Of a DNA stretch of 64,000 bases, positions 11,800-23,068 are shown one piece after another. A program made the translations under genes and the position numbers. The notes beneath the pieces were generated by a model that did not search any database, was not told where the DNA came from, and saw nothing but the letters and a program-made list of their open reading frames with translations. This DNA comes from Photobacterium sanguinicancri (GTDB taxonomy: Bacteria > Pseudomonadota > Gammaproteobacteria > Enterobacterales > Vibrionaceae), in the NCBI RefSeq assembly GCF_024346675.1, contig NZ_AP024850.1, positions 1,240,001 through 1,304,000 of the forward strand. The letters are read 5' to 3'. Position 1 is the stretch's first letter. Each line of letters begins with the position of its first letter.

Positions 11800-13197
11800 A
11801 TGAACCGAATTGGTAATGAATTTAATAAATTGGTGAACCGCAGCCTTGATCGCCATGTTCGTTTGGCTGTCACTGGGTTATCTCGTGCGGGTAAAACAGC
11901 ATTTATCACCTCGTTAATTAATCAGTTGATGCATGTCAGTACTAACCCACGCTTGCCGCTATTTACGGCAGTACGTGATGGGCACTTACTAGGTGCAAAG
12001 CGTGTACCACAGCTTGATTTACACGTGCCTAAGTTTGCTTACGATGAAGGGATGAACTCTCTTCTTGCTACACCGTCAGCATGGCCTGAGCCCACTAAAG
12101 ATGTGAGCCAAACACGGTTAGCATTGCGCTATAAACCGCAAAAAGGGCCAATGAAACTGCTGCAAGATACTGCAACTTTATACTTAGATATTGTTGATTA
12201 CCCAGGAGAGTGGCTGCTGGATTTACCGCTGCTTGATATGAGCTTTACGGAGTGGTCAGCACAACAAGCCAAATTAATGAAAGGGCAGCGTGAAGCTCTT
12301 GCTCAGAAGTGGTTAGCTTTAGGTGCAGAATTGGACCCTTTTGCACCTGCTGACGAAGCGCAAATAGAAGCCATTTCTAAAGCCTTCACAGATTACCTCT
12401 ACGCGTGTAAATCGGAAGGGGGATTGCATTGGGTACAGCCTGGTCGTTTTGTATTACCAGGTGAATTAGCGGGTGCACCTGTATTACAGTTTTTCCCTTT
12501 TGCATGGCTTAAACATCACAGTGAAGCTGAGTTAGCTCAGGCTGATGAACACAGTAATTTTGCCATGTTAGAACAGCGCTATAAGTATTATCAGCAACAT
12601 GTCGTGAAAGCCTTTTACCGCGATCATTTCTCAAAGTTTGATCGCCAAATTATCTTGGTGGATTGCTTAGCGCCATTAAATACCGGTCCAGAATCGTTTA
12701 ACGATATGCGTCAAGCCCTCGATCAATTGATGCAAAGTTTTAAATATGGCCGAAGTTCTTTAATGCGCCGTTTGTTTTCGCCACGGATTGATAAAGTCTT
12801 GTTTGCGGCGACCAAAGCTGATCATGTAACGCCAGAGCAGCACCCTAACTTAGTGAGTTTACTGCAACAGATGGTCAATGAAGCATGGCAGACAGCGTCG
12901 TTTGAAGGCATAAAAATGGATTGTGTGAGTCTATCGTCTATTCAAGCAACAGAGCCTGGCTTTGTGTCCTATCACGGCCAGCAGATGCCCGCATTACGTG
13001 GGAATGACATGGATGATCAGCCACAAACGATTTATCCAGGAGAAGTGCCGCGCCGCTTACCCAATGACACCTATTGGGAACAAAACGGGTTTGATTTTGT
13101 GAACTTCAGGCCATTAGCACAACAAAGTGATGAACCATTGCCACATATCCGTATGGATAAGGCATTGGAATATTTATTGGGGGACAAATTAAAATGA
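11800..13197 (+). CDS. ycjX: YcjX-family GTP-binding protein (DUF463)
   Basis: 465 residues. A P-loop GLSRAGKTAF is seen near residues 25-34 and a VDYPGEW switch-like motif near 131, followed by ILVDCL and ATKADH, which looks like the base-recognition motif (usually NKxD). The family is co-regulated with psp in enterics and is thought to be a dynamin-like GTPase tied to envelope stress. It overlaps ycjF by four bases. Precise function is not established. Confidence 0.92.
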   Translation: MNRIGNEFNKLVNRSLDRHVRLAVTGLSRAGKTAFITSLINQLMHVSTNPRLPLFTAVRDGHLLGAKRVPQLDLHVPKFAYDEGMNSLLATPSAWPEPTKDVSQTRLALRYKPQKGPMKLLQDTATLYLDIVDYPGEWLLDLPLLDMSFTEWSAQQAKLMKGQREALAQKWLALGAELDPFAPADEAQIEAISKAFTDYLYACKSEGGLHWVQPGRFVLPGELAGAPVLQFFPFAWLKHHSEAELAQADEHSNFAMLEQRYKYYQQHVVKAFYRDHFSKFDRQIILVDCLAPLNTGPESFNDMRQALDQLMQSFKYGRSSLMRRLFSPRIDKVLFAATKADHVTPEQHPNLVSLLQQMVNEAWQTASFEGIKMDCVSLSSIQATEPGFVSYHGQQMPALRGNDMDDQPQTIYPGEVPRRLPNDTYWEQNGFDFVNFRPLAQQSDEPLPHIRMDKALEYLLGDKLK

Positions 13198-20219: not shown

Positions 20220-21056
20220 ATGAAAGTCAGTATTTGTGGGTGTGGTTGGTTAGGATTACCGTTGGCACGTCACCTAAAGAAAGCTGGGTTTACGGTGCAG
20301 GGAACCAAGCGGACTGAAGCGGCAGCTCAGGCACTCTGTGATGAAGGCATTCGTGGTTTTCCACTGATCTTGCCGCTAACTAACGAACAACTGCCAGTTG
20401 TGAGTGATTTTTTTGATTGTGATGTGATGGTGCTGAATGTTCCTCCTGGTCGTCAAACAGCACTGTCCATGCAGTACGCCAGCACGATGTTAACCTTATG
20501 TGGTGAGGCAAAGAGGCGAGGAGTCCAGCAACTTGTCTTTATTAGTACGACCGCGGTTTATGGTGATGTGAAAGGTGTAATAACAGAAGTGACAACACCT
20601 GACCCGATTACTGAGTCGGGTAAAGCTCATTATGAGATAGAGCAAGGCTTGATAGCATCGTGGAGTGATCGGGTTACCATTCTCAGGTTAGCTGGCTTGT
20701 TTGGTCCAAATAGGCATCCGATTAAATTTTTATCAGGGCGTAAAGGTATTCAGCAAGGAGGGGCTCCAGTTAATCTTATTCATAAGTATGATTGTATTAG
20801 AGCAATTACTGCGATTATTACTGCTCAGCCTAAACAGAATGTTTTCCACTTAGCTTCAAGTCAGCACCCTTCACGATCAGAGTATTACACTACGATGGCA
20901 AAAAAAGTGGGGTTAGCTATACCTGAATTTAGTGATAACGAAGGTGGTAGTGCAAAGAAAATTGATGCGTCGTTTAGTTGTGATCAACTAAATCTGGTGT
21001 TGGATCAAGACGACTTATTAGCGATAGTCCCTGAATTAGATGATGCCAAGTGCTAA
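20220..21056 (+). CDS. YeeZ-like NAD(P)-binding epimerase/reductase (SDR superfamily)
   Basis: 278 residues. The Rossmann motif GCGWLGLPLA occurs at residues 7-16, followed by LNVPPGRQ, FISTTAVYGD (extended-SDR Ser/Tyr region) and a substrate half containing NLIHKYDCIRAI. This is the YeeZ family; the reaction is unknown. AAAGGAAATAGC precedes the ATG. It converges with the small-RNA cluster on the opposite strand, whose first terminator lies nine bases past its stop. Confidence 0.85.
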   Translation: MKVSICGCGWLGLPLARHLKKAGFTVQGTKRTEAAAQALCDEGIRGFPLILPLTNEQLPVVSDFFDCDVMVLNVPPGRQTALSMQYASTMLTLCGEAKRRGVQQLVFISTTAVYGDVKGVITEVTTPDPITESGKAHYEIEQGLIASWSDRVTILRLAGLFGPNRHPIKFLSGRKGIQQGGAPVNLIHKYDCIRAITAIITAQPKQNVFHLASSQHPSRSEYYTTMAKKVGLAIPEFSDNEGGSAKKIDASFSCDQLNLVLDQDDLLAIVPELDDAKC

Positions 21057-21065
21057 TTTTGAGAT

Positions 21066-21095
21066 AAAAAAACGCTGAGCAAAAAGGCTCAGCGT
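21066..21095 (-). terminator. Terminator of small RNA unit 1
   Basis: ACGCTGAGC (21072-21080) and GCTCAGCGT (21087-21095), loop of six; on the minus strand the stem is followed by seven T (21072-21066). Confidence 0.92.
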
Positions 21096-21229
21096 GAATA
21101 TCCAAAAAATTAGGAGTTTAAGCAGCAGTGGCAGTTTAAGATTAAATGCATAAGGACTCAGTAGCACTTACCCAGAACGAAATAACATATTAATAAATCA
21201 GTCAGTGGGTAAAAAGTTAATCTCAATCT
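21066..21229 (-). ncRNA. Small RNA, RybB/MicV-like seed, unit 1
   Basis: About 164 nt between a sigma-E-like promoter and an intrinsic terminator; the start is estimated from the promoter. The core at 21110-21133 reads TGCCACTGCTGCTTAAACTC then CTAA on the minus strand and contains GCCACTGCT, identical in units 2 and 3. The AU-rich linker after the core would suit Hfq. The 5' part is unique and can pair TTACCCA with TGGGTAA (21206-21212 and 21068+100 region, 21168-21174). From the core to the 3' end is 67 nt. No good ORF is shared among units. Inferred role: sigma-E repressor of outer-membrane protein mRNAs. Confidence 0.72.
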
Positions 21230-21235
21230 ATATAG

Positions 21236-21262
21236 TATGACTTTACGAAATCAGGTTGGTTC
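21236..21262 (-). promoter_or_regulatory. Sigma-E-like promoter of sRNA unit 1
   Basis: Minus strand: TTTGAACCA, then 16 bases, then TCATA. Spacing GAAC-N17-GTC is the same as in units 2 and 3 and equals that of enteric rpoH P3 as I recall it. Confidence 0.6.
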
Positions 21263-21342
21263 AAATTAATTTCAAAAAAGTGTTATTTTAATGCTTCGAT
21301 GCGTTTTTAACGGTGAACGGAACTTTTTCAAGTTTGGCACAT

Positions 21343-21373
21343 AAAAAAATCCCGCTGAACCTTCAGCGGGATT
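21343..21373 (-). terminator. Terminator of small RNA unit 2
   Basis: AATCCCGCTGAA (21348-21359) pairs with TTCAGCGGGATT (21362-21373); seven T follow on the minus strand. Confidence 0.93.
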
Positions 21374-21479
21374 ACCAAACGGTATAAATCATTTACACAA
21401 AATAAGGAGTTTTAGCAGCAGTGGCATCAATGTTTAATGATGAAAACACTCTTTTTTCATCACCATTAATTTGAATGTC
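21343..21479 (-). ncRNA. Small RNA, RybB/MicV-like seed, unit 2
   Basis: About 137 nt. The shared core lies at 21403-21426: TGCCACTGCTGCTAAAACTC then CTTA, one or two substitutions from units 1 and 3, with GCCACTGCT (21417-21425) intact. Downstream TGTGTAAAT is shared with unit 3. The 5' part folds into a hairpin, TGATGAAAA with TTTTCATCA (21438-21462), just before the core. From core to 3' end is 83 nt, close to the size of enterobacterial RybB. It has the best sigma-E promoter match of the three. Confidence 0.75.
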
Positions 21480-21485
21480 ATATAT

Positions 21486-21512
21486 TCAGACTGGCTGTTT
21501 TCATAAAGGTTC
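21486..21512 (-). promoter_or_regulatory. Sigma-E-like promoter of sRNA unit 2
   Basis: Minus strand: TTTGAACCTT with a 16-base spacer from GAACCT to TCTGA. The -10 TCTGA and spacing match rpoH P3 exactly. The preceding AATTTC is shared with unit 3. Confidence 0.68.
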
Positions 21513-21589
21513 AAAGAAATTCAAAAAAAGATTAAATAAAATTAAACCCCTTTAAAAATCAGTATGTTGACGTCTGGTGAATTTGGGGC

Positions 21590-21618
21590 AAAAAAAAGCC
21601 CACTAACAATGAGTGGGC
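21590..21618 (-). terminator. Terminator of small RNA unit 3
   Basis: GCCCACT (21598-21604) pairs with AGTGGGC (21612-21618); eight T follow on the minus strand. Confidence 0.92.
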
Positions 21619-21729
21619 GAAGCTCTATTTACACAATTAGGAGTTTAAGCAGCAGTGGCATTGTCGATTGAAGAGGATAATGCGTGTTGGCGGCCTGCGA
21701 ACAATTCATATATCGTCAATCTTAATGTC
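21590..21729 (-). ncRNA. Small RNA, RybB/MicV-like seed, unit 3
   Basis: About 140 nt. The core at 21637-21660 is identical to unit 1: TGCCACTGCTGCTTAAACTC then CTAA, with GCCACTGCT at 21651-21659, followed by TTGTGTAAAT as in unit 2. Core to 3' end is 70 nt. The 5' part (about 70 nt) is unlike the other two units. On the minus strand a 26-codon ORF runs through the core, but it is not conserved in the other copies, so a non-coding role is preferred. Start position estimated. Confidence 0.75.
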
Positions 21730-21735
21730 ACTATA

Positions 21736-21762
21736 TATGACTGGCATTTATCGACTTAGTTC
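21736..21762 (-). promoter_or_regulatory. Sigma-E-like promoter of sRNA unit 3
   Basis: Minus strand: AATTTCTTTGAACTA, 16 bases, TCATA. Nearly the same -35 block as unit 2 and the same spacing as both others. GCCAGTC before the -10 is also shared with unit 2. Confidence 0.62.
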
Positions 21763-21943
21763 AAAGAAATTATGAATTTTCGTTGTTTTGTTTTTAACTT
21801 CATGATTTTAAATTAAATTTAAATCGGATTTATTTCGGTCATTCAAAAAATGATATAAATCAGGGTTTATCCTGCTGTGCTCTGCCACTATGCCAGCTCA
21901 TATTGTTGTAAAGACAGTCTCTATGTCGTTAAAGGAGAACGCG

Positions 21944-23068
21944 ATGACTCAGAGTTTTTCGCTGAATACGTACCTTGAGCAATTAGCACAATTGGTCAAT
22001 ATTGATTGTGGTAGCCACACCCCAGAGGGGATTGCGAAAGTAGCAGATGTGCTTACCCCTATGTTTGAAGCTATTGGTTTTACCGTTACTCGTCATCAAC
22101 CCCACCCAGAGTCTGGGCCATGTTTGGCTATTACTAATAAACCCGACGCAGAGCATTATGATGTGATGCTAAGTGGCCATATGGACACGGTATTTCCAGT
22201 CGGTACTGTTGCTGAGCGCCCGATGACTTTTGATCAAGAAAAAGTCTATGGCCCCGGCGCGACAGATATGAAGTCAGGCATTCTGAGCGCACTTTATGCA
22301 TTACAAGCGCTAACTGACGATGAACGTTCCCGCCTTGCAATTGTAGTTGTCTTAAACTGCGATGAAGAAATTGGTTCTATCTATTCGCGTGAGTGGCTTG
22401 AAGGTTTTGCACGTAAGAGCCGCCAAGTGCTTGTTTGTGAGGCATCGCGCCCGACAGGTAACTTGATCCGTTCGCGTAAGGGTAATGCTAAGTACGAAAT
22501 TGAATTCCACGGTGTCGCTTCCCATGCTGGCTCTGCATTGGCTGAAGGCGTGAATGCAATTTATGAACTTAGCCATTGGTCATTAGCGATTAAAGGCATG
22601 GTTAACCTTGAAACGGGCACCACGATGAATGTGGGTGTCATTGAAGGTGGTATGGCTGTCAATGTCGTGCCAGATTACGCAAAAGCGACGGTTGACCTGC
22701 GTTTCTGGAACACTGATGAAGCAGAGGCGATCCACGAGAAGCTATTAGCCATGGCTGAAACGCCGTTTGAAGCTGGTGCGAGTGTGACGGTTAATCGCGT
22801 TACCTTTAAACCATCTATGCAGCCTTCAGATTACACAGAAGCCCTGATCAAGCTTGTAAGTGAAGAAGCAGAGAAACTGAACATTGTTTATGGGTGGGAA
22901 GATGCGGGCGGTGGTTCTGATGGTAACTTCACCGCAGCGCTTGGCACGCCAACACTTGATGGTTTTGGCCCTATGGGCGCAGGTTTTCACAGTGACAAAG
23001 AATACCTTCTGATCGACTCAATTGAGCCGCGTATTAAACTGTTAGCGAATACGCTACGCTGTTTGTAG
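21944..23068 (+). CDS. M20 family metallopeptidase (carboxypeptidase G2-like)
   Basis: 374 residues from ATG 21944, which has AAAGGAG at 21931-21937; an upstream in-frame ATG (21890) has none. Zinc ligands of the M20 family are visible: SGHMDTVF (His, Asp), GPGATDMKSG (bridging Asp), NCDEEIGS (Glu-Glu), CEASRP and the final GFHSDKEYL histidine. A central dimerisation domain (about 175-285) interrupts the catalytic domain. Closest in style to glutamate carboxypeptidases that cleave C-terminal Glu; the substrate is unknown. No signal peptide. Confidence 0.88.
   Translation: MTQSFSLNTYLEQLAQLVNIDCGSHTPEGIAKVADVLTPMFEAIGFTVTRHQPHPESGPCLAITNKPDAEHYDVMLSGHMDTVFPVGTVAERPMTFDQEKVYGPGATDMKSGILSALYALQALTDDERSRLAIVVVLNCDEEIGSIYSREWLEGFARKSRQVLVCEASRPTGNLIRSRKGNAKYEIEFHGVASHAGSALAEGVNAIYELSHWSLAIKGMVNLETGTTMNVGVIEGGMAVNVVPDYAKATVDLRFWNTDEAEAIHEKLLAMAETPFEAGASVTVNRVTFKPSMQPSDYTEALIKLVSEEAEKLNIVYGWEDAGGGSDGNFTAALGTPTLDGFGPMGAGFHSDKEYLLIDSIEPRIKLLANTLRCL

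Follow-up and report, generated by a model that had tools for sequence, protein, structure and literature searches.

An 833-bp gap in the 64-kb stretch of Photobacterium sanguinicancri DNA analyzed here (hereafter, the window) is flanked by two plus-strand ORFs, which by our own reading encode an NAD-epimerase and an M20-peptidase, and holds three minus-strand units at positions 21066-21762 (Table 1). In each of units A, B, and C, a sigma-E-type promoter precedes a variable 5′ part, which leads into a core of 25 nt; an AU-rich linker connects the core to the terminator. The three tandem minus-strand units of the original prediction were recovered at the same place, with core coordinates differing by 1-2 nt, and the promoter and the hairpin with T-run predicted for every unit were found in all three.

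Table 1. Features of the array and its flanks, in window coordinates (R1 and R2, covariance models described in the text)
Feature	Position	Strand	Remarks
NAD-epimerase ORF	20220..21056	+	
Unit A promoter, sigma-E-type	21736..21762	-	GAAC 21762-21759, N17, GTCATA 21741-21736; predicted start ~21731
Unit A, predicted ~142-nt VrrA-like sRNA	21590..21731	-	Loop-bearing array member; R1 77.1 bits, R2 91.4 bits, both high by construction, as unit A sits in both alignments
Unit A 5′ stem-loop	21666..21721	-	Arms ~21721-21713 and 21674-21666; apical GGCCG 21695-21691; coordinates taken by hand from alignment A2
Unit A pairing core GCCACTGCTGCTTAAACTCCTAATT	21635..21659	-	Predicted
Unit A terminator hairpin and T-run	21590..21618	-	
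Unit B promoter, sigma-E-type GAAC-N17-GTC	21489..21512	-	Predicted start ~21481
Unit B, predicted ~139-nt sRNA without GGCCG loop	21343..21481	-	R1 56.0 bits, R2 43.8 bits (in the R1 alignment, absent from the R2 alignment); folding z -2.9
Unit B pairing core GCCACTGCTGCTAAAACTCCTTATT	21401..21425	-	Predicted
Unit B terminator hairpin and T-run	21343..21373	-	
Unit C promoter, sigma-E-type GAAC-N17-GTC	21239..21262	-	Predicted start ~21231
Unit C, predicted ~166-nt sRNA without GGCCG loop	21066..21231	-	R1 69.1 bits, R2 44.2 bits (in the R1 alignment, absent from the R2 alignment); folding z -3.66
Unit C pairing core GCCACTGCTGCTTAAACTCCTAATT	21108..21132	-	Predicted
Unit C terminator hairpin and T-run	21066..21095	-	
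M20-peptidase ORF	21890..23068	+	

On the two strands of the window together, the motif GAAC-N17-GTC has seven matches, three of which are the array promoters (21762, 21512, and 21262). Their GAAC elements lie exactly 250 nt apart, although the intervening units differ in length. The remaining matches, at 2548 and 57338 on the minus strand and at 12054 and 46747 on the plus strand, may be chance occurrences or sigma-E promoters. A consensus scan of positions 20900-22000 found three terminators, against 0.5 expected from the shuffle mean, and one weak sigma-70-like site, against 4.1 expected.

Compared with the 25-nt query, the cores of the window units (GCCACTGCTGCTWAAACTCCTWATT) have 25, 23, and 25 identical positions; when the window was dinucleotide-shuffled 20 times, the top match per shuffle had 16-18. 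Among the three paralogs, core identity is 92-100%, whereas that of the 5′ part is only 41-53% (shuffled background, 55%), which supports the expectation of a nearly identical core within differing flanks and of selection acting on that core. A core-pattern scan returned 19 stretches, 18 of them from Photobacterium; the single match in Faecalibacter is taken as chance. All three window cores open with GCCACTGCT, which we take to be the RybB seed. The RybB-like seed of the original prediction stands in part: the 9-mer is present, but it is internal, lying 56-99 nt downstream of the predicted start and not at the 5′ end. Across the genus, 77 of 140 units have the exact 9-mer; in others the sequence is, e.g., GCCACTACT, with most of ACTRCTGCTWWAAMTCC retained. 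The conserved core extends over more than double the length of the RybB-like 9-mer. In folding predictions the core is less paired than the 5′ part in 133/140 units.

Distribution in Photobacterium and relation to VrrA

A covariance model of the core and terminator (R1) was built here and used for a census of the genus; alignments A1 and A2 contain 33 of 44 extracted units and 29 of 37 loop-bearing units, respectively. R1 has matches in 49 of 52 Photobacterium genomes, including all 48 of good quality, and the three genomes without a match are 74-85% complete. A total of 167 matches were obtained at E <=1, of which 13 fall in other genera, and 142 of the remaining 154 were counted as units (weakest counted unit, E 0.35, L134). 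The 12 excluded matches are weak (E 0.021-0.96), and by eye each of them is a RybB-type RNA, a class described below. Counts of regions, folding, and mini-ORFs cover 140 of the 142 units, and the loop count covers 141. The hexR and pykF genes lie beyond the epimerase gene in 48 of 49 genomes, the contig ending first in the last one (G033).

The 142 units of the 49 genomes form intact arrays of 1-6 members and one contig-broken array of seven, which supports the predicted amplification. One unit was found in 6 genomes, two in 12, three in 21, four in 5, five in 2, six in 2, and seven in 1. The array with seven units (G009) is divided between two contig ends (L114/L115), the break falling within units that are nearly identical, and its count may be an assembly artefact or a miscount. 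A tandem triplication had been called unusual; this holds in comparison with Vibrio (see below), but within Photobacterium multiple units are the rule, as 43/49 genomes have at least two. The promoter pattern GAAC-N17-[GC]TC was detected upstream of 141/142 units, one match being spurious (it touches the core), which leaves about 140; the unit without a match is cut by a contig end. The opposite-strand control gave 3/142.

In the covariance-model check proposed with the original prediction, the Rfam search yielded no match for RybB at the gathering threshold in the window and none at E <=10 in the units. For VrrA (RF01456), unit C scored 21.3 bits, below the 50-bit gathering cut-off, and units A and B produced no match. 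Applied to 60 genomes (36 of the genus, own genome included), the VrrA model reached its cut-off in 0/60; at E 0.01 it matched in 6/60, all six inside this array, the own genome not among them. In family f2 it matched in 0/11. Other Rfam matches (ncr1575, Hrs12, snoR72, and others) were below their cut-offs and were taken as chance.

The genomes of group g36 were taken as Vibrio because VrrA scores above the cut-off in 34 of 41 of them. One vrrA was found in 38/41 of these genomes, a count from a model that would miss loopless copies. In the three g36 genomes covered by both searches, the match of R1 is the vrrA gene itself. In 25 Vibrio-type stretches, which together contain 21 distinct vrrA genes, R1 found vrrA in 25/25 (E 6e-6 to 0.039) and nothing else below E 0.4. 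A second model, R2, for which loop-bearing units supplied the 5′ stem, loop, and core, found vrrA in 24/25 of the same stretches (E 1e-5 to 0.45; L217 was missed), its match being weak in the best-scoring Vibrio-type vrrA (17.3 bits, E 0.45). One Vibrio-type vrrA (L096) reads GCCACTGCTTTTTCTTATTTAACTCCTA, a RybB seed followed by the VrrA half. The genomic site of the Vibrio-type gene, beside TetR and fadE in the five stretches read, is unlike that of the array. Of 20 Vibrio-type genomes that have hexR and vrrA on one contig, 15 have them no more than 15 kb apart, and in the four loci read vrrA lies on the opposite side of hexR relative to the array. Because the Rfam cut-off is not reached and the genomic site differs, we did not file the units as members of RF01456.

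The apical GGCCG loop is common to unit A and Vibrio-type vrrA and is absent from units B and C. GGCCG within 110 nt past the -10 element was found in exactly one unit in 47/49 genomes and in two units in the other two (51/141 units); the stricter motif GGCCGYCRAA (one edit allowed) was found in 37/140 units and 35/49 genomes. From these counts per genome, the array is one VrrA-like gene accompanied by loopless derivatives. In the P. angustum group, the loop-bearing unit has swapped core halves, with ACTCCT before GCCACTGC (L100:3205-3272 and L099:2703-2770).

In 29 loop-bearing units, pairing of the 5′ stem is kept in 95.4% of cells, with two-sided changes in 7 of 9 pairs, and its covariation score was reached by 0/500 shuffles; the tested structure is itself a prediction from that alignment, which favors it somewhat, and relatedness among sequences can outscore shuffles even where no structure exists. 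Versions of the stem slid by 1-3 columns are 31-47% paired. Over 140 units the 5′ part folds better than shuffled sequences (mean z -1.94). Unit A alone is weak in this respect (folding z -1.45), and its core is partly paired in the predicted fold.

Kinship of the copies and a separate RybB-type RNA

Each of the window units A, B, and C is 90-100% identical to its own counterpart in genome G023 (four parts compared). Of 131 units tested, 117 have their closest relative in another genome and 14 in the same genome (G009, G026, G027, G028, and G029), where duplication looks more recent. These data bear on the reading that the copies are purely redundant dosage, all units being functionally equal. 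In its favor, the core is the part best shared among the paralogs, and the arrays of G028, G015, and G027 contain recent, near-identical duplications. However, the 5′ part of each window unit is kept at 90-96% in G023, most units are closest to a relative in another genome, and a single unit per array carries the VrrA loop in all but two genomes, so that pure redundancy appears somewhat unlikely. Units B and C are best explained as old derived copies that keep mainly the core.

A second kind of RNA was revealed by a pattern in which a sigma-E promoter is followed immediately by RCCACTRCTT. This RybB-type pattern was detected in 46/52 Photobacterium genomes (44/48 of good quality), compared with 3 matches in the reversed control; a second, distant match in G069 is probably chance. 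In the own genome, the pattern gives a predicted RNA of ~64 nt whose predicted 5′ end carries the RybB seed; it is located outside the window (L288:2464-2600; pattern match G000:C1:2480963-2481005, plus strand). In 40/46 genomes the RybB-type RNA is encoded on the strand of the array, up to 3.1 kb upstream of it. Its neighbors in G000 (the own genome), G023, G014, and G033 are TetR and fadE, the genes beside which vrrA is found in Vibrio-type genomes; in G070 (a genome of the same species) and G013 the RNA is on other contigs. The contig of the incomplete genome G013 (L292) carries, along with this RNA, hexR and a protein matching one of the genes that separate vrrA from hexR in Vibrio-type loci. 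In three further genera (g27, g30, and g37, one genome each) a RybB-type RNA is located upstream of an R1-type unit. Since the RybB-type RNA occupies the place of vrrA in some genomes and lies upstream of R1-type units in others, the two seed types share genomic sites. In the Vibrio-type loci examined, the RybB-type pattern gave one unconvincing match (L176) and no others.

The three units could also be read as triplicated RybB/MicV orthologs with the seed at the RNA 5′ end, as each core opens with the 9-mer taken for the RybB seed. We rejected this orthology as improbable, given the internal position of the seed in the units and the existence of a separate RNA with its own promoter and a 5′-terminal RCCACTRCTT, usually encoded upstream of the array. 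The lack of an Rfam RybB match in the window and units points the same way, although the RybB-type RNA itself has no Rfam RybB match either. The proposed RybB/MicV-type family is accordingly corrected to a VrrA-like one. Because both R1 and R2 find vrrA, the 5′ stem covaries, and the 5′-terminal RybB seed belongs to a separate RNA, the family is, judged by sequence comparison, a divergent VrrA and not RybB.

Still less probable is that the core represents a tiny ORF (ATG-CCA-CTG-CTG-CTN..., MPLLL...) and the units are mini-mRNAs or dual-function RNAs. An in-frame ATG precedes CCACT in 67/140 units, and MPLLLNS can be read in 44/140. On the other hand, 43/140 units have no ATG, GTG, or TTG start, a Shine-Dalgarno-like site is present at 0/97 of those that do, frame shifts and early stops vary while the DNA of the second core half is conserved, and the 5′ stem covaries as RNA; the coding reading was rejected. 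The conserved core in tandem copies might likewise suggest a repeat element (MITE or CRISPR-like) in place of sRNA genes, a practically negligible and rejected option, as the own genome contains only these three core copies (allowing 3 mismatches, or at E 0.1), the same epimerase gene adjoins the units in 49/49 genomes, every window unit has a promoter and a terminator, and unit spacing varies between 185 and 592 nt, plus two longer gaps of 877 and 1147 nt.

Porin complementarity and proposed mode of action

The predicted porin targets are supported by computation. Complementarity to the core is higher at nine porin starts of the own genome than in 47 window genes (z-score p 0.00023 for the core of A and C, 0.00025 for that of B; start codons chosen by rule), whereas reversed cores gave p 0.99. 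For eight other outer-membrane genes, p is 0.31 (core A/C) and 0.038 (core B). Codons of the signal peptide may contribute to the porin complementarity. A search of the own genome for near-exact targets of the core, with 3 mismatches allowed, gave the three cores and nothing more. In 6/6 genomes, GGCAGTGGA is conserved ahead of the ATG of a porin with a similar N-terminus (...LYD), and another porin class keeps TAGGAGTTATTCC before the ATG in 4/6 genomes, among the porins read (G000, 9/9; G010, 3/3; G067, 5/6; G028, 5/9; G029, 4/5; G023, 6/9). As leader motifs, GGCAGTGGA and TAGGAGTTATTCC fit the two halves of the core. Over the nine porins, the RybB-type RNA gave p 0.011. One porin (L219, G000:C1:961400-963100) has a leader carrying AAGAAAAGGCAGTGG before the ATG, and the RybB-type RNA is predicted to pair with this leader over 16 nt at -24.8 kcal/mol.

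We consider the locus, at a probability of about 0.8, to be a tandem array of three sRNA genes that derive from a VrrA-type gene, are driven by sigma-E, and repress porin translation. The units are very probably VrrA-like sigma-E sRNAs of a genus-wide, mostly tandem family, and are likely porin repressors. Computation shows the units with their promoters and terminators, their homology and conservation, the structure, and the complementarity to targets; the course of events that we infer is as follows. Upon outer-membrane stress, sigma-E would transcribe each of the three descendants of the VrrA-type gene separately, each probably ending at its own terminator. The product of 139-166 nt would comprise a 5′ stem-loop, an exposed core, and a terminator tail with a U-run that probably binds Hfq. 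The RybB-like half of the core, GCCACUGCU, would pair with sites resembling GGCAGTGG that precede porin start codons or follow them closely, and the VrrA half, AACUCCUAAUU, with AGGAGTT ribosome sites of another porin class; such pairing would block the start of translation and lower porin synthesis. As unit A keeps the VrrA 5′ loop, and B and C mainly the core, the array would raise the dose and may also diversify its activity. A wider and tentative possibility, to which we give less than even odds, is that the sigma-E sRNAs of Photobacterium form a rheostat set by copy number. In each array, a single ancestral VrrA with the loop (two in a few species) would act with clade-specific loopless derivatives that have private 5′ domains, and their two-headed core would hit two porin classes beside a RybB-type RNA, porin repression being tuned by a gene number of 1 to ~7.

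Multicopy sRNAs are known, but studies of dose versus specialisation usually concern one species at a time. Photobacterium provides a natural series of 1 to ~7 copies at one locus. Since nearly every array has one recognizable ancestral copy along with derivatives that keep mainly the core, dose versus specialisation becomes directly testable. The locus also connects the two seed types, VrrA and RybB, through the genomic sites that they have in common, and it suggests a divergent clade of VrrA missed by the current Rfam model.

Comparison with known systems

What is new here is the amplification of a VrrA-like gene and its regular design. A literature search found no paper on VrrA-type arrays or on VrrA of Photobacterium, within a coverage that does not extend to the key 2019 EMBO J paper on RybB, VrrA, and MicV. 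RNA-seq of P. profundum is reported to have yielded 460 putative sRNAs, tabulated in a supplement (PMC3505737), and the array RNAs may already be in that table, unrecognised.

VrrA is described as a sigma-E-dependent repressor of ompA that pairs at the ompA start (PMC2628432). Repression of ompT is a further mark of VrrA, and what the array shows on this side is its complementarity to porin starts. VrrA of Vibrio cholerae and other Vibrio (RF01456) resembles the array units in its sigma-E-type promoter, a CTGCT followed by the AACTCCTA core, and the terminator; a 5′ stem with the GGCCG loop is shared with unit A only, and VrrA is found by models built from Photobacterium. It differs in being a single gene with other flanking genes, whereas Photobacterium has a tandem array with loopless derived units, scores below the Rfam cut-off, and a core compressed to GCCACTGCTGCTWAAACTCC. 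RybB of enterobacteria and MicV of Vibrio share with the units the GCCACUGCU seed, a sigma-E-type promoter, and predicted porin targets; MicV was compared from a review description (PMC7602753) and had no match in the Rfam searches. The array units are longer than these RNAs, carry the seed internally, and coexist with a separate RybB-type RNA.

Other sRNA families come in sets of related copies. The Qrr sRNAs of Vibrio are siblings with a common core and in this respect resemble the array units; unlike these, their genes are dispersed, are controlled by sigma-54 and LuxO, and serve quorum sensing. The nearest functional analog, with no sequence relation claimed, is LhrC1-5 of Listeria, which PMC4132741 presents as multicopy, induced by envelope stress, and sharing a C-rich motif thought to block ribosome sites, with additive action proposed; Qrr is named there as an analog. 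The LhrC sRNAs differ from the Photobacterium array in their Gram-positive host, their control by the LisRK two-component system, and the near identity of their copies (PMC4132741).
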